Shown here: one piece after another, positions 34,746 to 47,600 of the stretch
Numbering within the stretch: position 1 is the first letter of the stretch
Layout: each line of letters opens with the position of its first letter
NCBI RefSeq assembly: GCF_011764425.1
Contig: NZ_BLPF01000001.1
Span: 4,145,001-4,209,000 of the forward strand
Length of the DNA: 64,000 bases
Reading direction: 5' to 3'
Source: Phytohabitans houttuyneae
GTDB lineage: Bacteria; Actinomycetota; Actinomycetes; Mycobacteriales; Micromonosporaceae
Notes under the pieces: generated by a model
Databases searched by the model: none
The model's input: only the letters and a program-made list of their open reading frames with translations
Told to the model about the DNA's origin: nothing
Position numbers and translations under genes: made by a program

Positions 34746-34789
34746 TGGAGCGGGTGACGAGAATCGAACTCGCACTGTCAGCTTGGGAA
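34746..34789. repeat. attL (44-bp core, displaced tRNA-Gly 3' end)
   Basis: Identical over 44 bp to 47527-47570. It corresponds to the 3' portion of tRNA-Gly from the anticodon loop to the acceptor end and is not a complete tRNA. Confidence 0.93.
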
Positions 34790-35928: not shown

Positions 35929-36058
35929 CGGCGATCACGCTGTATCGCGCTTCCATATACCGGAGCCACGCAACGGCACAGCGTTTCTCCAACCGGCCTC
36001 TTTAGAACCTACGTGCCCCCGCTATTGGCACGGCCGCGCGGGACGGCTGCACGGCAAG

Positions 36059-36111
36059 AGCGGCTGAAACATGTGTGAGCGGCGCCGCTGCTCTCCCGTG
36101 TTTCAGCCGCT
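36059..36111. terminator. Large hairpin with nested palindrome
   Basis: A 13-bp perfect stem (AGCGGCTGAAACA / TGTTTCAGCCGCT) with a 27-nt loop that itself contains the 12-bp palindrome AGCGGCGCCGCT (36078-36089). It could end both converging transcripts, or form a cruciform next to the iteron repeat at 36114. Confidence 0.55.
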
Positions 36112-36113
36112 GT

Positions 36114-36197
36114 TCGTGTCACTCAACCGTCACACAAGATCAGACGCGTTTCCGCAGGTCAGAGGTGATTGAGTGACACGAGTGACACAGGTGACAC
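36114..36197 (-). repeat. 84-bp inverted repeat, left copy, with GTGACAC iterons
   Basis: About 85% identical, in inverse orientation, to 45677-45760. It contains three GTGACAC units at 9-bp period (36173-36197) and the invariant core CTCTGACCTGCGGAAACGC on the minus strand. It is a candidate replication or partition site of the element. Confidence 0.85.
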
Positions 36198-36204
36198 ACT
36201 CCCG

Positions 36205-36909
36205 CTACCGAAGTTTCAAGAGGGACATGAGCGCGTCCGCGACTTCACCCATGGAGGTGACCACGACATCGGCACCGGCCACCGCGAACCGGTCGATCTT
36301 CCATGGGCGGTTCGCATACCCGATCACTGGGACGCCGGCCGCACGCCCACCGTCGATGTCCGTGAGCGAGTCTCCAATCAGGACGCACTGCGCCGGATCG
36401 ACGCCAAGCGCGCTCGCGGCGCGCAAGATCGGATCGGGGCTGGGCTTCATCCGTGCCGGATCAGCGTAGGCGCGTCCTGCGACGGGATGCACGTGGCCGG
36501 CCAGCCGCCGCGCTGCGAGGTACGAGGTCACCGCGCCGGCCGAGTTGTTGCTGACTACCGCGACCGGTAAGCCGACCTGGCGCGCACCGACGATGACCTC
36601 ACGTCCGTACGGGGTTGGCTCCGCAGTAGCCACCGCGCGAACCTCAGCCGCGCAGAGTGCATCCTCCACCATCGTGACTAGGCGCTGATCACCAGCACGC
36701 CCGACCCACCGGAGCACTTCTAGCGGGTCCTGTTCCTCGGCAACCTCGGCCGGCACAGACACGCCACTGTCACCGATCAGTGCGACCAGGTCCCCGGCAA
36801 CGGTCCGCGCCGGGTAGCCGGCGAAGATGCTGCACACCGGCCCGTCAAAGTCGAGCAACAGGGGACCGCGCCGCGCCAGTAGGCCAGCCACGCTGTCCGC
36901 CGCGCTCAC
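36205..36909 (-). CDS. HAD-family hydrolase
   Basis: 234 aa from GTG 36909, which overlaps the GntR stop (GTGA). HAD motifs in order: LLLDFDGPVCSIF (nucleophile Asp), VAVVSNNSAGAVTSYLA (motif II), ARMKPSPDPILRAA (Lys), and VLIGDSLTDIDGGRAAGVP (motif IV). It resembles phosphoglycolate-phosphatase-type enzymes. It is co-transcribed with the GntR regulator. HAD genes beside the Kor-like repressor are recurrent in AICEs; the substrate is unknown. Confidence 0.88.
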   Translation of the reverse strand: MSAADSVAGLLARRGPLLLDFDGPVCSIFAGYPARTVAGDLVALIGDSGVSVPAEVAEEQDPLEVLRWVGRAGDQRLVTMVEDALCAAEVRAVATAEPTPYGREVIVGARQVGLPVAVVSNNSAGAVTSYLAARRLAGHVHPVAGRAYADPARMKPSPDPILRAASALGVDPAQCVLIGDSLTDIDGGRAAGVPVIGYANRPWKIDRFAVAGADVVVTSMGEVADALMSLLKLR

Positions 36910-37820
36910 GCTTCGTACCGATACGCGATGGTGGACCACACGGAGTCGAACCACGCCCGTGAGGACTCAACGAACTGCGTGCCGTGCGACGCCTCATCAT
37001 CACTCACGGCGTAGTGGAACAGCGGCACGTCCTTGCCCATCAGGTCGTAGATCGCGGTTGGCTCCCCCTTGATCGGTACGGCGCGCTCAACAACTGGGTA
37101 GAAGCCGAAGAAGACCTCTTCACCGTTGATGATGTAGAGCTTGAACAGCGACGCAGCCCGGTGCATGCGAACCTCGGCCGTGGTCGACCTGACCAAGCCG
37201 AGGTCACCCAACTCGGCCACCTGATCAAGGATGCCGTCCACCGCCCGGCGGGTGATGCGCTCGGCACGCTCGCGCACCGCGACGTCATCGCTCTGGGTCT
37301 CTGCCCGCGCCGGCACCGCCATCGGAACCGACATGTCCGAAACCAGAACGCGAACCGCGATGGTCTCTGGCGCCAGTCTTCCGACTCGTACCTTGTCGAG
37401 TACCTCGGCGAGCGCATTCCGCAGTGTCTCGCCGGAGAAGCCGGCGAAATCCACTGTGACGTGCGGCCGGTCGAAGGCCGCTTCGATGTGCGGCCGCAAC
37501 TCAACCGCCCGCTGGGTCTGGGCGCGCACAAACGCGCCGCTCCCCTGTCGCGACACGATCAGCCGCTCCGCGCGCAGCGCCTCAAGCGCCCGCTTCACAG
37601 TCTCCCTGGCGACGCCGTACCGCGCCGCGATCTCCGGCTGTGACGGCAGCTTGTCACCAGGCGCGAGGCGCCTCGTAAGGATCGCCGCTCGTAGCTTCGC
37701 CGCGATCTGCGCCGACGCCTGTCTTGGGTCATCCGGATCAAGGTCACCGAGAAAGTCAACGTCCGTGGTCACCAGATCACGATAGCGCTGACTAGCCAAG
37801 TTAGGAAACTTCAGCACCAT
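36906..37820 (-). CDS. GntR-family repressor (KorSA-like)
   Basis: 304 aa. An N-terminal extension of about 30 residues precedes the GntR winged helix at about 35-100 (AAKLRAAILTRRLAPGDKLP, then PEIAARYGVARETVKRALEALRAERL). The C-terminal half is an effector domain with little similarity to FadR or UTRA that I can prove. It is divergently placed from the transfer/replication operon. Five TGRCTAGCCA-like sites (37789-37898) cover its own start and the divergent promoter, so it likely represses both, as KorSA does in pSAM2. Confidence 0.88.
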   Translation of the reverse strand: MVLKFPNLASQRYRDLVTTDVDFLGDLDPDDPRQASAQIAAKLRAAILTRRLAPGDKLPSQPEIAARYGVARETVKRALEALRAERLIVSRQGSGAFVRAQTQRAVELRPHIEAAFDRPHVTVDFAGFSGETLRNALAEVLDKVRVGRLAPETIAVRVLVSDMSVPMAVPARAETQSDDVAVRERAERITRRAVDGILDQVAELGDLGLVRSTTAEVRMHRAASLFKLYIINGEEVFFGFYPVVERAVPIKGEPTAIYDLMGKDVPLFHYAVSDDEASHGTQFVESSRAWFDSVWSTIAYRYEA

Positions 37821-37898
37821 CTCTTGACCTGACTAGCCAACCAGGTCTACCTTCGTCTCACGCACCTGGCTAGCCATGCTAGGCAGGCTTGCTAGACC
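37789..37898. promoter_or_regulatory. GntR operator cluster and divergent promoter
   Basis: TGACTAGCCA at 37789-37798 and 37830-37839, the perfect palindrome TGGCTAGCCA at 37867-37876, and weaker ATGCTAGGCA (37876-37885) and TTGCTAGACC (37889-37898). A rightward -35 TTGACC (37824-37829) and -10 TACCTT (37848-37853) bracket the second site. The rest of the gap to 38139 shows no convincing gene. Confidence 0.7.
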
Positions 37899-38139
37899 GA
37901 CTGGTGTCGGGGAAGGCGATTCCGTCGGGATCGCGCGCCTACGGCCCGCTGTGATCGCTGGTTCATTGACAACTGAAGGGGTCGTGACCTCCCCGGAAAA
38001 GGTCGCCGCGCACGCCAAGGTCCGTGCGCTCTTACCCCCGGTTGACCTGGGGTTTTCCTCTGTCTCCGCTGGCGGCGCGTTGCGCTGATGCCGCGTGCCG
38101 CCAGCGGCTCCACTTCGACTCCCCCTGTGAGGCATCGAC

Positions 38140-38400
38140 ATGGACACGTTCGACGTGCCCGCGCTGGCTAAGGCCGGCCCGACTGTGGAAGATCTCGCCG
38201 CGATCACGGCTGAGTGGCCGTTGATCGAGGCTGAGCTTGACCTGCTGGACGCCGAGATCCGCATCATCACTACTGACGACAACGCCTCTGACCTGGACTG
38301 GCGCCGGTTGCGCCGGGCCGAGACTCGCGTGCTGCGCGAGGCGACCGCGTTCTATGGCCGCGCGTCCAGCGTCGCCGTGCCGCATCGGCTGGTGGCCTGA
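38140..38400 (+). CDS. DUF6284 family protein
   Basis: 86 aa. VEDLAAITAEWPLIEAELDL, LDAEIRIITTDD and DLDWRRLRRAETRVLREA are the conserved pieces of DUF6284, found as the first small gene of many AICE transfer operons. It is soluble, acidic and helical. It is the first gene of the rightward operon that runs without real breaks to the ATPase at 45676. The next gene overlaps its stop by 1 nt (TGATG). Function unknown. Confidence 0.8.
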   Translation: MDTFDVPALAKAGPTVEDLAAITAEWPLIEAELDLLDAEIRIITTDDNASDLDWRRLRRAETRVLREATAFYGRASSVAVPHRLVA

Positions 38401-38609
38401 TGACCGCCCGTAACACGCCGCACCCGCTGGCCCGCGCCGGTCGTGTGGCTCGCGTGCTCGGCCCGATCGCCGGGATCGGAGCTGCACTGTCCGCCGTGCC
38501 CGGTGTGATCGGCACGGCCGGCGCTCTGCTTGCGATCGCGGCCGGCATGCCGGCGGTGGTGCTCGGCCTGTACGACGTGCGCCGCTGGCTCCGGTCCGGC
38601 AGGCGGTAA
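38400..38609 (+). CDS. Small membrane protein, Spd-like
   Basis: 69 aa with a basic start (TARNTPHPLARAGRVARVLG) and two Gly/Ala-rich hydrophobic segments (PIAGIGAALSAVPGVIG, AGALLAIAAGMPAVVLGLY), ending RRWLRSGRR. Position and style match small Spd proteins thought to aid plasmid spread through mycelium; this is inference, as no specific family motif is seen. Confidence 0.7.
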   Translation: MTARNTPHPLARAGRVARVLGPIAGIGAALSAVPGVIGTAGALLAIAAGMPAVVLGLYDVRRWLRSGRR

Positions 38610-38613
38610 CCCG

Positions 38614-38976
38614 GTGAGCCGGATACGCGCCGCGTACTACGACCCGGAGGGGTCGCGGTACGGCATCCCAACGTTCTGGTGGCGTGGCGCGCCGGCCTGC
38701 TACGCGACCCGGCGGCAACTACGTGACCGGGGACTACGGCCTGCCGGTCAGCCGGTCGCCGCTCAGATCTTGTGGCGCGGCGTAGGCGGCACGCGGGTGG
38801 CCTACCTGTACCGCCTCGACCTGGCCCGCCCGAAGCGCACCGCAACGGCGCGTCAGCGCGCCGCGATCGACCGGGCGCTACTGGCGCGCCGGACCTGCCC
38901 GATCTGCCGCCGCGTGCGGCCCTACTACATCCGTCGCTCGCTCGGCGAGTGTCTCGACTGCAACGAAGGACGGTAA
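38614..38976 (+). CDS. RRQRL-motif zinc-binding protein
   Basis: 120 aa, GTG start. YGIPTFWWRGAPACYATRRQLRDRGLRP carries the RRQ(R)L-type motif (here RRQLR) that names this AICE family. The C-terminal zinc-ribbon-like Cys pairs are in RRTCPICRRVRPYY and LGECLDCNEG. It probably binds nucleic acid. It lies 4 nt after the Spd-like gene and 3 nt before the DUF2637 gene. Precise role unknown. Confidence 0.8.
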   Translation: MSRIRAAYYDPEGSRYGIPTFWWRGAPACYATRRQLRDRGLRPAGQPVAAQILWRGVGGTRVAYLYRLDLARPKRTATARQRAAIDRALLARRTCPICRRVRPYYIRRSLGECLDCNEGR

Positions 38977-38979
38977 CCG

Positions 38980-39768
38980 ATGACCGCCGCACCGACTGTG
39001 AACAGCGCCTACCCGGCGCCGATCGAAGACCTGCTCCCCCGCGCTCGCGCGCTCGCCGACGCGCTCGGCGAGATCCCCTCCCGTAACCGCCTCAAGAAAG
39101 AGCTGCGCGTCGGCTCACCCAAGGCCAACGCCCTGCGCGACGCGCTGGCCGAGCTGCTCACCCCGCCCGCGCCGGCCGCCGCGCCGGAGCCCACCGAACC
39201 CACCCCGGACCTGATCGGCACGCCACCGGCCACGCCCGAACTGGCGCCGGCCGAGCAGACGCCGCCGCTGCCCGCGTCGCCGCTGGAAGGCAGCGACGCA
39301 GACCCGGGTACCAACATCACGGCCGAAGTCACCGCGACCGCGCGGCGCCGCCCGGTTGTCTGGCCGGTCCTGCTGCTGGCCGCACCCGCGTTCGTCGCCA
39401 TCTGGGCCGGTTGGGTGGAGCTGGGCAAGCTCACCGGATTCGGCAAGGTCAACCTGCTGCCCGGTATCGCCGATGGCGTGATGCTGGACACGGCCATCAC
39501 CCTGCCGATCGGCATGGAGACCTACGCCGCGTACGCGCTGTGGGTGTGGCTGTCCGGCCGCGCCCCGCACGCCGCCCGGCGGTTCGCCAAGTGGTCCGCG
39601 ATCGCCTCGCTCGCGATCGGCGCCGCCGGTCAAGTCACCTACCACCTGATGGCCGCCGCTGGCTGGACGTCGGCGCCCTGGCCGGTCACCGCGCTGGTTG
39701 CCTGCCTGCCCGTCGCCGTGCTCGGCATGGGTGCGGCGCTGGCTCACCTAATGCGCGCTGAGCACTAG
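38980..39768 (+). CDS. DUF2637 membrane protein (Spd-like)
   Basis: 262 aa. Residues 1-60 resemble a DNA-binding or helical head (LADALGEIPSRNRLKKELRVG, PKANALRDAL). A Pro-rich linker follows. The DUF2637 part has four membrane helices (VWPVLLLAAPAFVAIWAGWV, LLPGIADGVMLDTAITLPIG, FAKWSAIASLAIGAAGQVTY, PVTALVACLPVAVLGMGAAL). DUF2637 proteins are found in actinomycete conjugative elements beside traB and are counted among spread proteins. It is followed by a hairpin (39775-39820). Confidence 0.85.
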   Translation: MTAAPTVNSAYPAPIEDLLPRARALADALGEIPSRNRLKKELRVGSPKANALRDALAELLTPPAPAAAPEPTEPTPDLIGTPPATPELAPAEQTPPLPASPLEGSDADPGTNITAEVTATARRRPVVWPVLLLAAPAFVAIWAGWVELGKLTGFGKVNLLPGIADGVMLDTAITLPIGMETYAAYALWVWLSGRAPHAARRFAKWSAIASLAIGAAGQVTYHLMAAAGWTSAPWPVTALVACLPVAVLGMGAALAHLMRAEH

Positions 39769-39774
39769 CACCGC

Positions 39775-39820
39775 CCGGCGGCGCGGCCCTGTGGCCTGAG
39801 AAACCGCGCCGCGCCGCCGG
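39775..39820 (+). terminator. GC-rich intra-operon hairpin
   Basis: A 12-bp perfect stem (CCGGCGGCGCGG / CCGCGCCGCCGG) with a 22-nt loop, 6 bp after the DUF2637 stop. It may reduce read-through between the early and traB parts of the operon. Confidence 0.5.
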
Positions 39821-39858
39821 TCCCCCTTCCAGCCTGGAAAGACTTCGGAGGAACCTCC

Positions 39859-40332
39859 ATGTTCGCAGACCCAACCGCCGAGCTGGGCACGTTCGGCGCT
39901 GTCTTCGCCGCTCTGTACGCCGCTCACCAGGTCGCCGACCACTGGATTCAGACCCAGTGGCAAGCAGACACCAAGGGCAAGACCGGGTGGCTCGCCAACC
40001 TCGCGTGTGCCGCGCACGTGGCCACCTACACGCTGACCGGCGTATTCGCGCTGTTCGCGCTCGCCGCTGCGACCGGCTGGCGTCCCGACCCGTGGCACCT
40101 GGTGATCGGGATGAGCATCTCGGCGGTCACGCACTACATCGCCGACCGGCGCACGCCGCTGTTCCGGCTGGCTTGCGCGCTGGGATCAGGTCGCTTTTGG
40201 ACACTCGGCGCGCCGCGCCCGGACCGTGACGACAACCCCTCGCTGGGCACGGGCGCGTACGCGCTTGACCAGTCCTGGCATGTCGGCTGGCTGTTCTTCG
40301 CCGCGCTGTTCATCTCCGGAGGTCAGTCGTGA
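39859..40332 (+). CDS. DUF3307-like membrane protein
   Basis: 157 aa with three to four membrane segments. LYAAHQVADHWIQTQWQADTK contains the conserved His and Asp of DUF3307, and ISAVTHYIADRRTPLFRLAC the second conserved His. ALDQSWHVGWLFFAALF is the C-terminal helix with another His. Conserved His/Asp inside membrane helices suggest metal binding. Similar proteins recur in AICEs between Spd genes and traB. GGAGGAACC precedes the ATG. Function unknown. Confidence 0.75.
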   Translation: MFADPTAELGTFGAVFAALYAAHQVADHWIQTQWQADTKGKTGWLANLACAAHVATYTLTGVFALFALAAATGWRPDPWHLVIGMSISAVTHYIADRRTPLFRLACALGSGRFWTLGAPRPDRDDNPSLGTGAYALDQSWHVGWLFFAALFISGGQS

Positions 40333-40547
40333 CCATCCACAGTGCGCTAGCCCGAATCGGTTATGTGACAACGGATCTGGACGACTATGCCGCCGCGCTC
40401 GCCGACCTCGCCGAGGCGATCAGGTGCCGCAAAAGCGCCGATGTGCTCGGCCACGTGGAGCGCATCGGCGCTTGTGACCCGCCTACGGCCGCCGCGCTGA
40501 CGGACTGGCTGATCTTCACTGAGATGTTCGAGGAGGTGACCTCGTGA
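40329..40547 (+). CDS. Hypothetical protein, 72 aa
   Basis: GTG start overlapping the previous stop by 4 nt; its own stop overlaps traB by 4 nt. Acidic and helical (YAAALADLAEAIRCRKSADV, THE/EMFEE-like acidic end). There is no known domain. The tight coupling on both sides supports a real gene in the transfer operon, perhaps producing a TraB partner. Confidence 0.7.
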   Translation: MTIHSALARIGYVTTDLDDYAAALADLAEAIRCRKSADVLGHVERIGACDPPTAAALTDWLIFTEMFEEVTS

Positions 40548-42688
40548 CCGTCAACCCCAACCCGGAAGAGTTCGACTGGAAGGCCGCTGAGGCTGACGTG
40601 ATCGGCGGCGCTGACGTGGTGGACCTCGACGGGGTACGCGCCCGCCGGCAGCGCCCTGAGACGCACTTTGAGACGGTTCTTGATGAGGAGCCCACCCCTG
40701 GCGGCGCGCCGGTTGACGTGCCCGAGCAGGGCAAGGGTCAGCCGCCGATGGTGCCGACCTGGTTGCAGGGATGGGCGAACCTCAAGCACTCGCTGCGGTA
40801 CGCGGCCAAGGTGACCGGCTATCGGGTTGGCTTCCACGCGATCCGCTCACCGTGGTACGCGACGCGAGCGCTGTTCTGGGCGGTACCGGGCGTGTTCCGG
40901 CTGACCGCGATGCACGTGCGCTGGTGGTGGGTGACCGAGCAGCACACGCTGCGGCAGAAGGCCGCTGACGACAACGACCCGCAGACGTGGCTCAAGCTGC
41001 ACCGTGAGGCCAAGTCAACCCGGTCCTGGCGCGGCTTCGTGCTGGTCTGTGAGGCCGTCGCTGTCCTGTGTGGAGCGCCGATCGCGTACGCGATGGCTCC
41101 CTGGTGGGCGGTCGCGATCGCGGCGGTGGTGGCGATCACTGGACTTGCCCACATTGGACGCCCCGCTGACCGGCCGATCGTGTCCCCGGCCACGGTGGCG
41201 GGTCGGTTCCGGCGCCTCAACTCCGACATCGTGCTGCGCGCCTACTACGCGGCCGGCCTCGGCAACCCGGACAAGCCACACCAGCAAATCCAGTTCGGCT
41301 CGCCGATGTCGCGTGACGCAACGGATTCCGGCTCACAGGTGCTCATCGACCTGCCGTACGGCAAGACGTTCGATGACGCGCTCAAGGCCAAGGGTGCGAT
41401 CGCCTCCGGGTTGGACGTGTCCATCAACCAGGTCTTCATCACCCGCGACCGCACCTCGCACCGCCGGCACGTGCTGTTCGTGGCCGACCGTGACCCGCTG
41501 GCCATCCCGGCCGGTCGCACGCCGCTGCTGGACGGCAAGCCGCGCGACATCTGGATTCCGGCACCGTTCGGGCTGGACGAGCGCGGCCGCAAGGTCGGTC
41601 TGCTGCTGATGTGGATCTCAGTACTGATCGGTGCTCAGCCGCGCAAGGGCAAGACGTTCTCCGCGCGGCTGCTGGCGCTGTACGCGGCGCTCGACCCGTA
41701 CGTCAAGCTGCTCGTGGTGGACGGCAAGATGTCCCCCGACTGGGACAAGTTCCGTCTCGTGGCGCACCGCTACGTGTGCGGCGTGGTGCCGGACAGCCGC
41801 GACAACGACCCGATCACGCACATGCTGGAGCTGCTCCGCGAGGTCAAGAAGCACATCGAAGAGGTCAACGACTTCCTGGCCAAGCTGTCCGTGACCGAGT
41901 GTCCAGAAGGGAAGATCACCCGCGAGCTGTCCCGCAAATACGCGCAACTGCGGGTGTGGGTGCTGGTCATGGAGGAGTTCCAGAACTACTTCGAGACCGA
42001 TGACCAAGACGTGAACAAGGAGATCGCGGCCCTGCTGTCGTTCATCAAGGCCGTAGGTCCCTCGGCGGGCGTGGTCCTGCTGTCGGCCAGCCAGAAGCCT
42101 TCCGGCGTCGGTGCTGGCGACGTGGCGCGGCTGTTCAACCGGTTCCGGGACAACCACGATGTGCGTTTCGCGCTCAAGTGCGGCAACCGCATCGTGTCCG
42201 AGGCGATCCTCGGCGGGGACGCCTACGCCGAAGGGTTCGACGCCTCCACCCTGCCCAACGGCCCGGAGTACCGGGGTGTCGGCATCCTCTACGGCGCCAC
42301 CGATGACACCCCGATCGTGCGCACCTACCTAGCCGACCACGCCGACGCGGAGAAGATCCTGCACGCCGCGCGTAAGCACCGGATCGCGGCCGGCACCCTG
42401 TCCGGCCTCGCCGCTGGCGAGCAGGTCGAGCGTGAGGTACGCGACGCGCTCGCCGACGTGCGTGCCGTGTTCAACGCTGGCGAGCGTGGCCTGCACTGGC
42501 TGCACATCGCTGCCCGGCTGGCCGAGCGGTTCCCGGAGCACTACGCCGACACCACGCCCGAGGCGATCTCCGCGCAACTGCGCGCGCTTCGTGTACCGAG
42601 CGTGAACGTGAAGGTCGCCGGGGAGACGCTCAAGGGTGCCCGGCTGGACGCCATCGACACCGCGATCCGAGCACGCGGCAACCCCTGA
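40544..42688 (+). CDS. TraB/TraSA DNA translocase (FtsK/SpoIIIE family)
   Basis: 714 aa. Two membrane helices at about residues 170-210 (FVLVCEAVAVLCGAPIAYAM, WAVAIAAVVAITGLAHI). The RecA-type motor has Walker A GAQPRKGKTFSARLL near residue 365 and Walker B VLVMEEFQNYF near 472. A C-terminal winged-helix-like region follows (LHWLHIAARLAERFPEHYAD, EAISAQLRALRVPSVNVKV), corresponding to the part of Streptomyces TraB that binds repeats in the clt locus. It moves double-stranded DNA between mycelia. Nine CGCTACC repeats begin 16 bp after its stop. GTG start. Confidence 0.92.
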   Translation: MTVNPNPEEFDWKAAEADVIGGADVVDLDGVRARRQRPETHFETVLDEEPTPGGAPVDVPEQGKGQPPMVPTWLQGWANLKHSLRYAAKVTGYRVGFHAIRSPWYATRALFWAVPGVFRLTAMHVRWWWVTEQHTLRQKAADDNDPQTWLKLHREAKSTRSWRGFVLVCEAVAVLCGAPIAYAMAPWWAVAIAAVVAITGLAHIGRPADRPIVSPATVAGRFRRLNSDIVLRAYYAAGLGNPDKPHQQIQFGSPMSRDATDSGSQVLIDLPYGKTFDDALKAKGAIASGLDVSINQVFITRDRTSHRRHVLFVADRDPLAIPAGRTPLLDGKPRDIWIPAPFGLDERGRKVGLLLMWISVLIGAQPRKGKTFSARLLALYAALDPYVKLLVVDGKMSPDWDKFRLVAHRYVCGVVPDSRDNDPITHMLELLREVKKHIEEVNDFLAKLSVTECPEGKITRELSRKYAQLRVWVLVMEEFQNYFETDDQDVNKEIAALLSFIKAVGPSAGVVLLSASQKPSGVGAGDVARLFNRFRDNHDVRFALKCGNRIVSEAILGGDAYAEGFDASTLPNGPEYRGVGILYGATDDTPIVRTYLADHADAEKILHAARKHRIAAGTLSGLAAGEQVEREVRDALADVRAVFNAGERGLHWLHIAARLAERFPEHYADTTPEAISAQLRALRVPSVNVKVAGETLKGARLDAIDTAIRARGNP

Positions 42689-42697
42689 AAGGTGGCG

Positions 42698-42852
42698 GCG
42701 GCGGCGCTACCCGGTAGCGCCGCCGCTACCTCTGCCGCTACCACCCTGGCCAGCCGCTACCTGTCCTGGTAGCGGGTAGCGCCAGCGGTCCCGCACACCC
42801 GAAAACCGGCCTCTGGAGGCATTCCATGCCCGCCCTTGCCGCTACCGCTACC
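42698..42852. repeat. CGCTACC iteron cluster, candidate clt
   Basis: Nine copies of CGCTACC/GGTAGCG: six direct (42705, 42724, 42736, 42755, 42840, 42846) and three inverted (42713, 42768, 42775). The first two form a 14-bp stem (42698-42711 / 42713-42726). The cluster fills the gap after traB and enters the next gene. TraB-type translocases recognise short repeated sequences in such places. Confidence 0.7.
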
Positions 42853-43095
42853 GCCAGCGCCGGCACGATCGGCGCTCTCCTGATCGCCATGATCGTTGTC
42901 ACGTTCGGTTACGCGTTCACGTGCTGGCTCTGGCCGTTCAAAGCCTGCCGCCGCTGCGGCGGCACCGGTCGCAAGCGCGGACCGATCGGCCGGATCTACC
43001 GGCTGTGCCGCCGCTGCCACGGCGACGGCCTACGCCTACGCGCCGGCCGCCGGATCGCCAACCACCTGCGTCAACTGCACCGGGACGCCCGATGA
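42826..43095 (+). CDS. Small membrane zinc-ribbon protein
   Basis: 89 aa. An N-terminal membrane helix (IGALLIAMIVVTFGYAFTCWLW) is followed by two CxxCxGxG motifs (CRRCGGTG, CRRCHGDG) like those of the DnaJ zinc centre. The basic tail is RLRAGRRIANHLRQLHRDAR. GGAGGCATTCC precedes the ATG. The 5' end contains two of the CGCTACC repeats. Anchored zinc-ribbon proteins of this kind occur in AICEs; function unknown. Confidence 0.75.
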   Translation: MPALAATATASAGTIGALLIAMIVVTFGYAFTCWLWPFKACRRCGGTGRKRGPIGRIYRLCRRCHGDGLRLRAGRRIANHLRQLHRDAR

Positions 43096-43406
43096 GCGTG
43101 TTCGACTTCAACCCTGATCACACCGACTGGTGTGCCCGCGATCACCGTTGCGGCACCGCCGGGGAACACCGGGCAGAGTCGATCGTGGTGCACATCCCCG
43201 GCCACGGCCGCGCCGCGCTCACCCGCGCACGCACGGCTGACGGCCGCGAGTACGCCGAGCTGCACATGCGCATCCCGCTGCGGCCGGTCGAGAACCATGC
43301 GCGCCGGCAACTGCACGGCATCCTGTCCGACCTACGCGACCTCGTAACCCGCGCCGCGACCATCACCCGACCTGCGTCCCGCCACAGTGGACGGAGGGCA
43401 GCGTGA
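43092..43406 (+). CDS. Hypothetical protein, 104 aa
   Basis: ATG overlaps the previous stop (ATGA). FDFNPDHTDWCARDHRCGTAGEHR has two Cys and several His and could bind a metal. A beta-rich region follows (ESIVVHIPGHGRAALTRART, YAELHMRIPLRP), then a helical end. It is soluble. Related proteins are known to me only as AICE hypotheticals. It couples to the next gene by a 4-nt overlap. Confidence 0.7.
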   Translation: MSVFDFNPDHTDWCARDHRCGTAGEHRAESIVVHIPGHGRAALTRARTADGREYAELHMRIPLRPVENHARRQLHGILSDLRDLVTRAATITRPASRHSGRRAA

Positions 43407-43705
43407 TGGCAGACAACCGCCGCGACGGACCGTCGTTCCGTGACCCGCCGCTGACCGGCGCCGAGGTCTGGCTGATCGGCACGCTCGCAGAGCTGCACGC
43501 CATCACGGCGGCGCTCGGCGATGCCGGCGCGGTCGCCTACCAGGCACCGCGCAAGGCCATGCACGGCAGCGACGCCGGCCGCTACCGCCAGTACGTACGC
43601 CTCAACATCGCCAGCGCTGCACCGCGTCAGCGCACCCACGCGCGACCGGACGACTCCGGCGGCGTGCTTATCGACCTCGACGCCGCCCGGCGGCGCACCG
43701 CATGA
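43403..43705 (+). CDS. Hypothetical protein, 100 aa
   Basis: GTG start overlapping the previous stop, with its own end overlapping the Prim-Pol gene by 4 nt. LTGAEVWLIGTLAELHAITAAL, GAVAYQAPRK and YRQYVRLNIA suggest a small alpha/beta fold. There is no recognised family. Translational coupling and position just before the primase support a replication-linked accessory role (inference). Confidence 0.65.
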   Translation: MMADNRRDGPSFRDPPLTGAEVWLIGTLAELHAITAALGDAGAVAYQAPRKAMHGSDAGRYRQYVRLNIASAAPRQRTHARPDDSGGVLIDLDAARRRTA

Positions 43706-44649
43706 CCACAATGGAGGGAGCAACCCTCATGACCCTGCTCGATACCGCGCTGGCCGCCGCACGGCGCGGCTGGCACGTCTTCCCCGTCCGGCCCGGGGAC
43801 AAGACCCCCGCCCTGCACGGCGACCGGCGCTGTCCCGGCACCGGCCCGTGCAAGTCCGGTCACCTCGGCTGGGAGCAGCGTGCCACCATCGACCCGGACC
43901 GTATCCGCGCCTGCTGGTCCGGCGCTGTCTACAACGTCGGCATCGCGTGTGGTCCGTCCGGCCTTGTCGTTGTCGACCTCGACCGGCCCAAGCCGAACCA
44001 GGTCGCGCCGGCCGAGTGGCGCATCCCCGGCATCAGCGACGGTGGCGACACGCTCGCCGTGCTCGCCGACCGGCGCGGCCAGCCGTATCCGTGCGACACG
44101 TACACCGTCACCACGACAAGCGGCGGCACGCACCTGTACTGGCAGCACCCGGACGGGCCAGAGCTGCGCAACACGGCCGGCGCGCTCGGATGGCTCATTG
44201 ACACCCGCGCACACGGCGGGTACGTGGTCGCGGCCGGCAGCATCGTGGCCGGCAATCGGTACACCGTCGAGTGGGAGACCGACCCGGTGCCGTTGCCCGG
44301 CTGGCTGGCCGACCTGCTCGCCGCGGAGTCCCGCCCGCTGCCGGTCGAGGAAGCCGCGCCGGTCCTGCTGCGCGAGGCCGGCCGCCGTGCCGCGTACGTC
44401 GGCGCCGCCATCGACGCCCAGCGTCAGCGGATCGCCGAGGCGCCGCAAGGCCAGCGCAACCGTGCGCTGTACCTGTCCGCCGTCGCGCTCGGCCAACTCG
44501 CCGCTGGCGGCGCACTCGCCGAGGAAGACGTTTACACAGCCCTGTGGCCGGCCGCACGCGCCGCCGGCCTCACCCGACGCGAGACAGACCGCACCATCCG
44601 ATCCGGCCTCAAAGCCGGCGCGGCGCGACCTCGGAGCGTGGCGGCATGA
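43702..44649 (+). CDS. Bifunctional DNA primase/polymerase (Prim-Pol)
   Basis: 315 aa. The N-terminal Prim-Pol domain starts LLDTALAAARRGWHVFPVRP. Further motifs are KTPALHGDRRCPGTGPC, VGIACGPSGLVVVDLDRPK (metal-binding acidic hDhD motif) and TSGGTHLYWQHP with the conserved His. A C-terminal helical part (YLSAVALGQLAAGGALAEEDVYTAL) follows. It is the replication initiator/primase type of AICEs and pairs with the RepA-like ATPase next door. ATG 43702 is coupled to the previous stop; ATG 43729, with GGAGGGAG before it, is an alternative start. Confidence 0.9.
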   Translation: MTTMEGATLMTLLDTALAAARRGWHVFPVRPGDKTPALHGDRRCPGTGPCKSGHLGWEQRATIDPDRIRACWSGAVYNVGIACGPSGLVVVDLDRPKPNQVAPAEWRIPGISDGGDTLAVLADRRGQPYPCDTYTVTTTSGGTHLYWQHPDGPELRNTAGALGWLIDTRAHGGYVVAAGSIVAGNRYTVEWETDPVPLPGWLADLLAAESRPLPVEEAAPVLLREAGRRAAYVGAAIDAQRQRIAEAPQGQRNRALYLSAVALGQLAAGGALAEEDVYTALWPAARAAGLTRRETDRTIRSGLKAGAARPRSVAA

Positions 44650-45676
44650 GCGCCGCGACGCCGGCCGAGCGGCCCGACCTACGCGTGGTCGAGCCGGGCG
44701 AACAGCCGGACGTGCTGTCCCCGGTCCGCCGAGAGACCGGCCGTCTGCGCACCGCATGGACAGCCGCCGACCTGATGGGCATGGACTTCCCCCGCCACGG
44801 TGGGCCGTACCCGGCATCATCTGCGAGGGCGTCAACCTGCTAGCCGGACCGCCGAAGGTCGGCAAGTCCTGGCTGTCCCTCGCGCTCGGCCTCGCCGTCG
44901 CGGCCGGAGGTCAGGCGTTCGGCGCCATCGACGTGCAAGCCGGGCCGGTGCTCTACCTCGCGCTGGAAGACACGCCGCGCCGGCTACAGAGCCGGATCGG
45001 CAAGGTCCTCGCTGGGCAACCCGCGCCGGCCGCGCTGACGCTCGCGACCTCGTGCCCGCCGCTACCGCAGGGTGGCGACGAAGCGATCGCGACCTGGTTG
45101 GACCGCAACCGCGACGCGCGCATGGTCATCATCGACGTGTTCGCCAAGATGCGCGGCGCCTCAGCGCCGGGCATGTCCGCCTACGACGCCGACTACGCCG
45201 CCGTAGGCCGAATCAAGAAGGTCGCCGACGCCTACGGGATCGCGGTCCTGATGGTCCACCACGTACGAAAAGCAGGCAGTGAGGACTTCCTAGAGGCCGT
45301 GTCCGGCACCAACGGCATCGCGGGTGCCGCCGACGCCACGCTGGTACTCAAACGGCCACGCGGGCAAGCCGATGGCGTGCTACACGTGACCGGCCGCGAC
45401 GTGGACGAATCCGAGTACCCGCTGGCGTTCGACGCGCACGCCGGAGCATGGCTCATGCTCGACGGCCCAGCCACCGACCACGAGCTAGGCGACACCCGAT
45501 CGGCGATCATCCGTCACCTGCGCGCCAACCCGGCCAGCGCACCGAAGGTCATCGCCGAGGCGACCGGCCTAAACCCGGCCACCGTCCGGCAGACCTGCAC
45601 GAGGATGCTCGCCGACGCGCAGGTCACCTGCGACGCCGCCGGACGCTACTCGCTGCCCGGCGGGGACCTGTCCTGA
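44646..45676 (+). CDS. RepA/RadA-like AAA ATPase (helicase; apparent frameshift)
   Basis: About 343 aa after repair. It starts ATG 44646, overlapping the Prim-Pol stop. Walker A is LLAGPPKVGKSWLSLALG near residue 70, Walker B ARMVIIDVFAKMRG, followed by VLMVHHVRKAGSEDFLEAVS (sensor) and a C-terminal winged helix (VIAEATGLNPATVRQTCTRM). This is the AAA_25/RepA hexameric helicase type seen beside Prim-Pol. One C must be added to the run at 44789-44793 to give DFPPPRWAVPGIICEGVNLL. The stop directly abuts the 84-bp repeat at 45677. Confidence 0.85.
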
Positions 45677-45760
45677 GTGTCACCCGTGTCACCCGTGTCA
45701 CTCAACCGCCTCTGACCTGCGGAAACGCTTCTGATCATGAGTGACAGCAGAGTGACAAGA
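45677..45760 (+). repeat. 84-bp inverted repeat, right copy, with GTGTCAC iterons
   Basis: Inverse of 36114-36197. It begins with three GTGTCAC units at 9-bp period (45677, 45686, 45695), then the shared core CTCTGACCTGCGGAAACGC. It starts one base after the helicase stop. The following 228 bp to the xis start show no convincing gene. Confidence 0.85.
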
Positions 45761-45988
45761 TCAGGCAGACATACTGTTACATAAGCCTCTGAGAGGCTCT
45801 GAGCGGACTAGACGGTACCCATCACACCGGACCATCACAGATCTTGGCTCTACGTGGCTCTGAGCGCGCCGTTCTACGGCCCGTTGAGCGTCCGCACCCC
45901 GCATCCACTCCCGACGCTGCGTGCCGCCCGATGGGCGCCTACAAGGCGTCTCAGGCGGCACGCGGCGCGACCGGAAGGAGCCTCCCGA

Positions 45989-46231
45989 GTGAGCGCGAAG
46001 TCGTTGGCGCCTCTGCCGGACGAAATGCTGACGATCGAAGAAGCGGCGGCGCGAATCAAGATGAGCGCCCGCTACGTGCGCCGGCTCATCGCCGAGCGTC
46101 GCATTCCCTTTCACCGGCTCGGCCGGTCTGTACGCATCCACCCAGCCGACCTGGCGTCGTTCGTTCACGCCGGTCGCGTCGAGCCGATCAACCCGGGAAC
46201 CGTGTGGAACGAGTTTAGGAGGGTCGCCTAG
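45989..46231 (+). CDS. xis: Excisionase / MerR-like helix-turn-helix protein
   Basis: 80 aa from GTG 45989, chosen because GGAAGGAG lies 8 nt upstream. MLTIEEAAARIKMSARYVRR, LIAERRIPFHRLGRSVRIHPADL is the excisionase-type winged helix (helix_turn_helix_17). It directs the integrase to excise. The stop overlaps the integrase start by 1 nt (TAGTG), the usual AICE xis-int arrangement. Confidence 0.88.
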   Translation: MSAKSLAPLPDEMLTIEEAAARIKMSARYVRRLIAERRIPFHRLGRSVRIHPADLASFVHAGRVEPINPGTVWNEFRRVA

Positions 46232-47436
46232 TGGCGAACAAGGGAGGGCACCGGCGGTTCGGCAACATGCGCCGGTTGCCGTCCGGCCGGTACCAGGTCC
46301 GCTACCCCGGACCGGACGGACTGCCGCGCACAGCGCCAGAGACGTTTGCGCGCAAAGGAGAGGCCGAACGGTATCTGTCCATCGTGGAGGCTCAGCTAGC
46401 GCGCCACGAGTGGGTCGATCCGGATCGGGCGAAGATCCGGCTACAGGACTACGCGGAGCGCTGGATCTCGCACCGTCCGAACCTCCGGCCGCGTACGGTC
46501 GCGCTGTACACGTGGCTACTGGGCAGGTACGTAACTCCGTACCTCGGCGGCGTGCCGCTCGGCCGGCTCGACACGCCGATGGTGCGCGAGTGGCGGGCAA
46601 CCCTGCTGGGAAACGGCGTATCGGCCACGATGACCGCCAAGGCGTACCGCCTGCTTCGCGCGGTGCTCATGACCGCCGTGAACGAGGATGAGCTAATCCG
46701 CAAGAACCCATGTCGCATACCGGGCGCTGACCAGGAAAAGGCGTCGGAGAGGCCGGTACTGAACATGGCTCAGGTCTTCGCGCTCGCCGATCAGGTAGGC
46801 GAGCGGTACCGGGCGCTGATCCTGGTAGCCACTTTCGGGTGTCTGCGGTGGGGCGAGGTCGCCGCGCTGCAACGGCAGGACATCAACGCCAGCACGGGCG
46901 TCAACCGCGTCCGTCAGGCGTTCACGGAGCTGCGCGGGGTTGGCATGGTGCTCGGCCCGCCCAAGTCGCGGGCCGGTCGCCGCGCGGTGTCCGTGCCGGC
47001 CGCGATCCTGCCCGTGCTCCGCGCCCACCTCGGCCGATGTGTCGGCGAAGGGCCGGACGCGCTGGTGTTCACCGGGCCGAACGGCGCGGCGATCCGGCGC
47101 GGCAACTTCAACAAGCTCACGAAGTGGTCAGCCGCCGTGGCCGCGATCGGCGCGGCCGGCCTGCACTTTCACGACCTCCGACACACGGGCAACACGCTCG
47201 CCGCGCGGACCGGCGCCAGCACGAAGGAGCTGATGGCGCGCATGGGTCACGACTCGGCACAGGCCGCGCTGATCTACCAGCACGCCACGGCCGAGGCCGA
47301 TCGGGCGATCGCCGAGGCGGTCAACGACGCCGTCAAGGCAGAACAGCGGCGGGGCAAGAAGGCGCCCAAGCGCGAGCGGAAGCGGCGCGGCGACCCTGAC
47401 GACGGAGCGGCCGGGATGCTCGCCAAGGTGAGCTAA
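46231..47436 (+). CDS. int: Tyrosine site-specific integrase
   Basis: 401 aa. The N-terminal arm-binding domain (MRRLPSGRYQVRYPGPDGLP) is followed by the core-binding domain at about 68-160 (RLQDYAERWISHRPNLRPRT). The catalytic domain has Arg in FGCLRWGEVAAL, HDLRHTGNTLA (His-x-x-Arg), GHDSAQAALIYQH (His, then Tyr nucleophile). All catalytic residues are present. The gene ends 90 bp before attR. It recombines attP with the tRNA-Gly attB. Confidence 0.95.
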   Translation: MANKGGHRRFGNMRRLPSGRYQVRYPGPDGLPRTAPETFARKGEAERYLSIVEAQLARHEWVDPDRAKIRLQDYAERWISHRPNLRPRTVALYTWLLGRYVTPYLGGVPLGRLDTPMVREWRATLLGNGVSATMTAKAYRLLRAVLMTAVNEDELIRKNPCRIPGADQEKASERPVLNMAQVFALADQVGERYRALILVATFGCLRWGEVAALQRQDINASTGVNRVRQAFTELRGVGMVLGPPKSRAGRRAVSVPAAILPVLRAHLGRCVGEGPDALVFTGPNGAAIRRGNFNKLTKWSAAVAAIGAAGLHFHDLRHTGNTLAARTGASTKELMARMGHDSAQAALIYQHATAEADRAIAEAVNDAVKAEQRRGKKAPKRERKRRGDPDDGAAGMLAKVS

Positions 47437-47526: not shown

Positions 47527-47570
47527 TGGAGCGGGTGACGAGAATCGAACTCGCACTGTCAGCTTGGGAA
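47527..47570. repeat. attR (44-bp core inside tRNA-Gly)
   Basis: Identical to 34746-34789. It spans the tRNA 3' half from the anticodon loop onward, so integration leaves a complete tRNA gene here. Confidence 0.93.
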
Positions 47571-47600
47571 GCTGATGTTCTGCCATTGAACTACACCCGC
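47530..47600 (-). tRNA. tRNA-Gly(CCC)
   Basis: 71 nt. Acceptor arms GCGGGTG / CACCCGC, anticodon stem TCAGC / GCTGA around the loop TTCCCAA (anticodon CCC), T arm GCGAG-TTCGATT-CTCGT. CCA is not encoded. It is the insertion site of the AICE; the 3' half is now supplied by the element. The 167 bp from here to 47767 hold no other gene. Confidence 0.95.

Follow-up and report, generated by a model that had tools for sequence, protein, structure and literature searches.

Background

Phage P4 has two sites with boxes, the origin (ori) and crr, that lie far from each other, and its alpha protein carries a superfamily 3 (SF3) helicase in the same protein as its primase. Excerpts of PMC4234260 describe the primase of alpha as a Toprim primase, and excerpts of PMC9942202 mention crr and a P4 origin that were included but inactive. 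RSF1010, a plasmid of incompatibility group Q (IncQ), has one priming site with hairpins on each strand, ssiA and ssiB, primed by RepB' (excerpts of PMC4434180, PMC6925257 and PMC4234260). Among the actinomycete integrative and conjugative elements (AICEs), SLP1 is described in part of PMC3218068 as having two regions important for replication, one of them with the Prim-Pol operon. A literature search, largely of open-access papers and not proof of absence, found no description of the origin of a Prim-Pol AICE. Here we describe the predicted origin of such an element, which lies in a 64,000-nucleotide stretch of the Phytohabitans houttuyneae genome (NCBI RefSeq assembly GCF_011764425.1, contig NZ_BLPF01000001.1, positions 4,145,001 to 4,209,000 of the forward strand). 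This whole stretch is called the window.

Two inverted repeats near the ends of the element very probably make up, as two halves, its replication origin, with boxes that would be bound by the winged-helix of the element's own helicase, because in related elements the boxes vary together with the part of that helicase that would read DNA. The observed basis is a conserved inverted pair, matched box types, co-variation with the winged-helix, and location.

Results

The inverted repeat pair in the window

The element is bounded by a 44-bp exact repeat (100%) of the 3' part of a tRNA-Gly gene. It has a tyrosine integrase, the tRNA attachment (att) repeat, an FtsK-like transfer protein and a Prim-Pol primase/polymerase, as a Prim-Pol-type AICE does. 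The original prediction, a model's reading of the letters and open reading frames of the window, had read it as an AICE whose replication proteins are Prim-Pol and a RepA-like helicase. Its gene content, att repeat and the profile match of the helicase bear this out.

The two repeats are arms of 88 nt, 86% complementary and separated by 9479 nt (Table 1). They are the longest among 91 inverted pairs in 34-48 kb of the window; the runner-up has 40 nt at 70%. Each copy is laid out as reversed boxes, the 13-nt core TTTCCGCAGGTCA, and three boxes with a 9-bp period. The reversed boxes on the opposite side of the core number one or two, and some are degenerate. A 20-nt core, GCGTTTCCGCAGGTCAGAGG, is common to both copies. 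The last base of the helicase stop codon is 45676, and the next base, 45677, is the first of the right copy. On the outer side of the left copy is a hairpin, and the single-strand DNA fold of 36040-36130 has a z of -4.75; the left copy proper folds with a z of -2.52. The pair had been put at 84 bp and its shared core at 19 nt, lengths that are here corrected to 88 and 20. The three boxes per copy at 9-bp period, the abutment of one copy on the helicase stop, and the hairpin beside the other copy were found as predicted.

The helicase

A profile of 17 ATPases of this type matches one distinct PDB sequence, RSF1010 RepA (1g8y), with an E value of 2.1e-10. The AlphaFold model of the window's helicase has a mean predicted local distance difference test score (pLDDT) of 77, with the first 45 residues mostly below 50. 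A fold search with this model returned RecA-like helicases, headed by DnaB and RadA, with RepA chains at ranks 12, 15 and 17. The protein matches AAA_25 ATPases and has weak C-terminal helix-turn-helix (HTH) matches. On these matches we assign it to the RSF1010 RepA-type family.

In many relatives, for example loci L067 and L070, the near array falls within the coding sequence of the helicase, which thereby gains a tail such as GVTGVTPVTGVTQPAL. The window's helicase differs in that its stop codon precedes the near array.

Paired copies in relatives

A search of the genus with the repeat DNA matched only the window's own genome (1/6), so relatives were sought through the Prim-Pol protein. Searching 250 genomes of the family gave 63 positives at E 1e-20. 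The first set of 70 loci (numbered L) consisted of 60 stretches, 9 loci from named genomes, and the window. Prim-Pol proteins of the window kind are present in 88 of 354 genomes of the family, and a window-type ATPase/helicase is present in 25 of the 70 loci.

A core-plus-boxes scan of both strands found a near copy (minus strand, at the end of the ATPase gene) in 24 of these 25 loci, the exception being L121, where a near array is seen by eye. A far copy (plus strand, upstream) was found in 23; the exceptions are L121 and L088, whose contig reaches only 3.7 kb upstream, and the far copy of L071 is weak. The box type, GTGAC or GGGAC, is equal in both copies in all 23 pairs. In its strict form the scan gave 51 matches in the 25 loci; reversing these sequences left 0, and four Markov-resampled sets gave 1, 0, 2 and 0. 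The case named beforehand as telling against a replication role, relatives with the same genes and no such repeats, was looked for in this set, with near copies found in 24/25 and far copies in 23/25.

A pairing of an origin with a termination (ter) or partition site is conceivable, but the equality of boxes and core in the two copies gives no sign of separate roles. A related alternative is that one copy would be the origin and the other a copy-number, incompatibility or activating site for the same helicase, comparable to crr of phage P4 or to handcuffing iterons. It would account for the shared boxes, for an inter-copy distance that varies by kilobases, and for the hairpin motif TGTTTCAG, which stands beside only one copy in 24/30 loci (L158 lacks a far copy). 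A mere titration site would require no core, spacing or orientation, and these are kept in both copies (23/23), so we consider this alternative unlikely, if worth keeping in mind. The idea of a replication origin, as first proposed, is thus supported by the conserved pairs and the co-variation with the helicase described below, and is sharpened in that the copies look like two halves of one origin.

The left copy is doubled in L069, L073, L107 and L108, with the two close together. The window's own genome holds further elements on contig C1. At about 4.404-4.409 Mb a decayed relative at a tRNA-Ser gene (L009:8927-14120), with fragments of HAD and GntR genes, keeps two inverted origin-like copies and the hairpin; it has no match to the window's Prim-Pol or helicase. 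A third element (L120), at 4460600-4480000, has a Prim-Pol gene that is split in two, together with inverted repeats of 100 bp (97%) that carry ACGGCT boxes; the left one of these repeats lies between the TraB match and the orienting Prim-Pol piece.

Box type and the helicase winged-helix

In the recognition helix of the winged-helix, a Q before [TN][CA].RM goes with GTGAC boxes in 9/9 loci and a K or R with GGGAC boxes in 14/16 (Fisher 2.7e-5, without correction for kinship). Agreement of nearest neighbours with box type is 24/25 for the winged-helix, 23/25 for the AAA part, 21/25 for Prim-Pol and 17/23 for the integrase (Int; p 0.03). Box type is not predicted by the transfer protein TraB (13/22, p 0.25), by its last 100 residues (12/22), or by the GntR regulator (9/16). 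On a tree of the AAA part alone, with the winged-helix left out, there are at least 6 changes of box type and 6 of helix state.

A sister helicase family offers a second comparison. Among its 22 loci a C-terminal RGN occurs with CCGAG boxes in 7/7 and RGD with CGGAG boxes in 15/15. The tree of this family has 7 changes each of residue and box, and all 4 independent well-supported pairs agree. When 7-mers are used instead of 5-mers, 21 of the 22 loci are scorable and L116 is of neither type. The boxes thus probably follow the C-terminal winged-helix of the helicase, and the paired conservation together with this co-variation ties the repeats to the replication module, as had been proposed. A further rule on the residue after TC was found post hoc, is broken by L186, and is not claimed.

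Short direct repeats with a 9-bp period on an AICE also call to mind the cis-acting locus of transfer (clt) of Streptomyces plasmids, which contains 8-bp TraB recognition sequence (TRS) repeats (excerpts of PMC4170104). Were the boxes a clt bound by TraB for double-stranded conjugative transfer, TraB should track them. By the nearest-neighbour counts above, an indirect measure, it does not, and closely similar TraB proteins (normalised score 0.89-0.92) occur with opposite boxes in L063/L089 and L101/L072. In addition, in three Streptomyces loci (L054, L055, L060) the stretch from the TraB match to the Prim-Pol match holds a separate CAGGGA cluster (7-8 copies), which as a candidate clt fits better than the boxes do. 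We regard the clt explanation as very improbable. TraB and GntR were both dropped as candidate readers of the boxes.

Loci held out from the analysis

The rules were fixed before 40 unseen loci were read, 34 of them new Prim-Pol places and six left from the 250-genome search. The RGN/RGD rule was correct in 17/17 held-out loci of the sister family, and the Q/K-R rule in 4 of the 5 with a matching helix, L155 being wrong. Neither helicase type is present in the remaining 15/40. Five of the 8 held-out ATPase loci have the near-minus/far-plus pair by scan (L152, L155, L164, L178 and L186), the far copy of L164 being mixed, T3/G2. L158 is cut by a contig end, and L190 has a near array visible by eye. 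L189 has a different box, GGGTTCA, with four per copy and none elsewhere in its 15.6 kb, which suggests that a change of the near copy is accompanied by one of the far copy, even to a quite different box.

Position of the arrays on the chromosome and on the excised circle

By the cluster rule an array lies 1.75-3.75 kb from the Prim-Pol start in 56/70 first-set and 30/40 held-out loci. Counted as occupied 250-bp bins, with the far copies counted outside this zone, the first set has 72/560 inside vs 38/4796 outside, and the held-out set 38/320 inside vs 6/2523 outside. A direct-repeat array near the putative initiator gene, as in iteron origins, is what is found here.

Two deposited circular elements are arranged similarly. 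NZ_CP108827 and NZ_CP108973 have a CCGCTACC array between a DUF3631 helicase gene, the RepAM type of PMC3218068 as far as excerpts of that paper describe it, and an HTH gene next to the integrase, probably xis. In NZ_CP108827 (L191) this array is the only one found, under a slightly looser rule; NZ_CP108973 also has a CGTGAA cluster at 8.7 kb.

In 13 of the 25 ATPase loci both att repeats could be located, and the distance from attL inward to the far copy is 148-2239 bp. The excised circles of these 13 loci would measure 11.6-15.7 kb, with the copies separated by 1.9-4.8 kb on the side of int and attP and by 8.8-13.2 kb on the side of the replication and transfer block. The near copy lies between helicase and integrase, and in 8/13 loci a distance of 148-421 bp separates the far copy from attL, positions that would also suit regulatory or integrase-arm sites (an operator, a terminator, or arms for Int/Xis). 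In the other 5/13, however, the far copy is 1.4-2.2 kb from attL. Int predicts the boxes less well than the helicase does, and GntR does not predict them. The array lies behind the helicase gene, often within its 3' end, and not at a promoter. Such sites are a very improbable explanation of the pair.

Six sister elements with two clear cores are compact: where their helicase gene ends, the inverted cores are separated by 131-147 bp. The compact cores face outward in L104, of the GCGGAGAT type, and inward in five GxTGACA loci (L083, L090, L093, L095 and L100). These elements also bear on the idea that the inverted pair is a recombination substrate. Elements such as the 2-micron plasmid are amplified through recombination between inverted repeats, and the inverted copies, their internally inverted box layout and the equal boxes in both copies of an element would suit a pair through which the 9.5-kb block is inverted or the element amplified. 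Cores so close together in the sister elements, and boxes that follow the helicase, are not what it leads one to expect. The integrase is the only recombinase match among the ten element proteins searched, and the integrase and replication genes have one relative orientation in 23/25 loci (no integrase was found in L067 and L075). The inversion of the block that the original prediction allowed for is thus not borne out, and we hold a recombination role to be very improbable indeed.

Far-apart pairs of arrays occur also in L109, L117 and L188. These loci do not have a helicase of the window type, and the split layout is therefore not confined to one helicase.

The core and the hairpin motif as markers

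The 13-mer TTTCCGCAGGTCA is present in 28/41 genomes, none of which has a match in the reversed control. Of 30 places inspected by eye, several adjoin tRNA genes or fall in what seems to be coding sequence. The 13-mer of L094 and L096 appears by eye to be one arm of a tRNA-terminator hairpin; a pairing test found such a terminator stem at 1/30 places. The 13-mer alone was therefore dropped as evidence for an origin, since it occurs outside origins. In G005, a genome of the same genus, it occurs 37 times (0 reversed), vs 7 in the window's genome.

The hairpin motif TGTTTCAG occurs 148 times in 2.02 Mb vs 7 in reversed sequence. It stands at -61/-62 from the near core in 16/30 loci, with the reverse arm about 22 bp away in 13. 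In many relatives it adjoins the right copy rather than the left.

Observations that do not fit

Several observations weigh against the proposed origin or the proposed reader. The Q/K-R rule is broken by L076 and L077 in the first set and by the held-out L155, and 3/8 held-out helicases (L186, L189, L190) are outside the helix pattern. The AAA part and Prim-Pol also predict box type fairly well, because the module travels together. Well-supported branches of the AAA tree leave only 2 independent pairs, in which the box follows the helix in 1.7 on average and never the opposite; long branches lead to the window, L092 and L121. The held-out set is related to the first, at least L167 and L176 repeating a domain string of L103 and L106.

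As regards the repeats, the far copy was not found in L121 or in the held-out L190, and a permissive scan gave weaker matches on either strand, 37 in the 2.65-Mb reversed control of the 70 loci. The cluster rule finds no array in 14/70 and 10/40 loci. Seven of the 14 have a near copy by scan and three by eye (L095, L100, L121), which leaves L057, L058, L065 and L097. The 10 include L155, with a near copy by scan, and L190, with one by eye; eight are left. The 13-nt core is found outside origins as well. The right copy does not fold significantly better than shuffles (z -0.91) and TGTTTCAG is beside only 22/30 near copies and 8/28 far copies, so the hairpin is a weak part of the proposal.

Other features of the element

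Table 1. Features of the element, in positions of the window
Feature	Position	Strand	Remarks
attL	34746..34789		44-bp exact copy of tRNA-Gly 3' part; left element end
Hairpin CTGAAACA...TGTTTCAG	~36056..36114	+	outer side of left copy
Left (far) half-origin, predicted	36110..36197	+	reversed box GTGTCAC at 36116; core 36149-36161 on +; GTGACAC boxes at 36173, 36182, 36191
HAD-family hydrolase	36205..36954	-	without match in many relatives
GntR regulator	36906..37820	-	sequence does not predict box type
FtsK/SpoIIIE-like transfer protein (TraB)	40544..42688	+	PHROG match, no Pfam match
Prim-Pol primase/polymerase	43702..44649	+	PF09250, E 6.6e-45
RSF1010-RepA-like helicase (AAA_25) with C-terminal winged-helix	44651..45676	+	recognition helix NPATVRQTCTRM; start codon putative
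Right (near) half-origin, predicted	45677..45764	-	GTGTCAC boxes at 45677, 45686, 45695; core 45713-45725 on -; then two degenerate boxes
GATCTTGGCTC...GGCTCT motif	45840..45868	+	between origin candidate and integrase
Tyrosine integrase	46231..47436	+	profile match
tRNA-Gly(CCC)	47527..47600	-	3' part is attR

The element also encodes a DUF3307 protein. Between the predicted origin and the integrase, GATCTTGGC is present in 51/110 loci, often inside GATCTTGGCTC...GGCTCTCAGCGGGC, with 70 occurrences over all loci vs 5 in the reversed control; this motif is perhaps a control element of xis/int. A tRNA-Leu called by ARAGORN at 36589-36675, within the HAD gene, has no Rfam support and is probably spurious; an Rfam scan returned the tRNA-Gly alone.

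Discussion

A model of initiation

We infer that the helicase binds and is loaded at both copies and that these have origin activity. In the model, the winged-helix of the RepA-like helicase would bind the 9-bp boxes around the core in each half, the right half being where the helicase gene itself ends. The helicase would thereby be loaded at both halves and the core opened. Prim-Pol, encoded just upstream, might then prime at each core, and because the halves are inverted this would give one priming event on each strand. This last step, with one start per strand as in RSF1010, is speculative and drawn by analogy.

In elements of the window type the halves would have been pulled apart relative to the compact sisters, and on the excised circle the integrase and attP would lie between them. 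It is conceivable that the integration module has split the origin, whose halves sit near the two element ends in the chromosome, such that excision reassembles them across attP and integration takes the origin apart. The element would then replicate only once excised. In the circular form the three-box arms face outward, as in the compact origin of L104. The cores of the five compact GxTGACA loci face inward, and for this reason we consider such a split doubtful.

The place, parts and probable reader of a Prim-Pol AICE origin are now predicted, with a residue-to-base rule for the sister family, and the origin is therefore directly testable. It could permit minimal vectors for laboratory actinomycetes, and it offers a model for replication tied to excision.

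Comparison with known systems

The closest likeness is to RSF1010 and the IncQ plasmids, which share a RepA-type helicase, a separate primase of the archaeo-eukaryotic kind, and iterons. The two inverted cores might correspond to the per-strand priming sites of RSF1010. The systems differ in that here helicase and DNA-reading domain form one protein, a PF09250 Prim-Pol serves as the primase, and each half has its own iterons and can be kilobases from the other. No match to RepC was found among the ten element proteins searched, smaller open reading frames being outside that search. Because the winged-helix is fused to the helicase, we do not class the element as IncQ.

Phage P4 is similar in that a winged-helix of the replication protein reads the origin repeats, according to excerpts of PMC4234260; here, however, Prim-Pol and the RecA-like RepA helicase are encoded by separate genes. 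The same excerpts describe pRN1 with a primase, a helicase and a C-terminal winged-helix, and with an origin that has a stem-loop and lies directly behind the replication gene. Unlike the present element, pRN1 lacks iterons, encodes one SF3 fusion protein and has just one stem-loop. SLP1 and other AICEs with Prim-Pol/RepPP share the order of Prim-Pol and then the replication gene, but the portion of PMC3218068 that describes them gives no origin sequence or box rule. Iterons, RepA helicases and Prim-Pol are thus parts that were already known. New are the fusion of the probable iteron reader to the helicase, its box rule, and the paired inverted origin, as predicted here, towards both ends of an integrating element.

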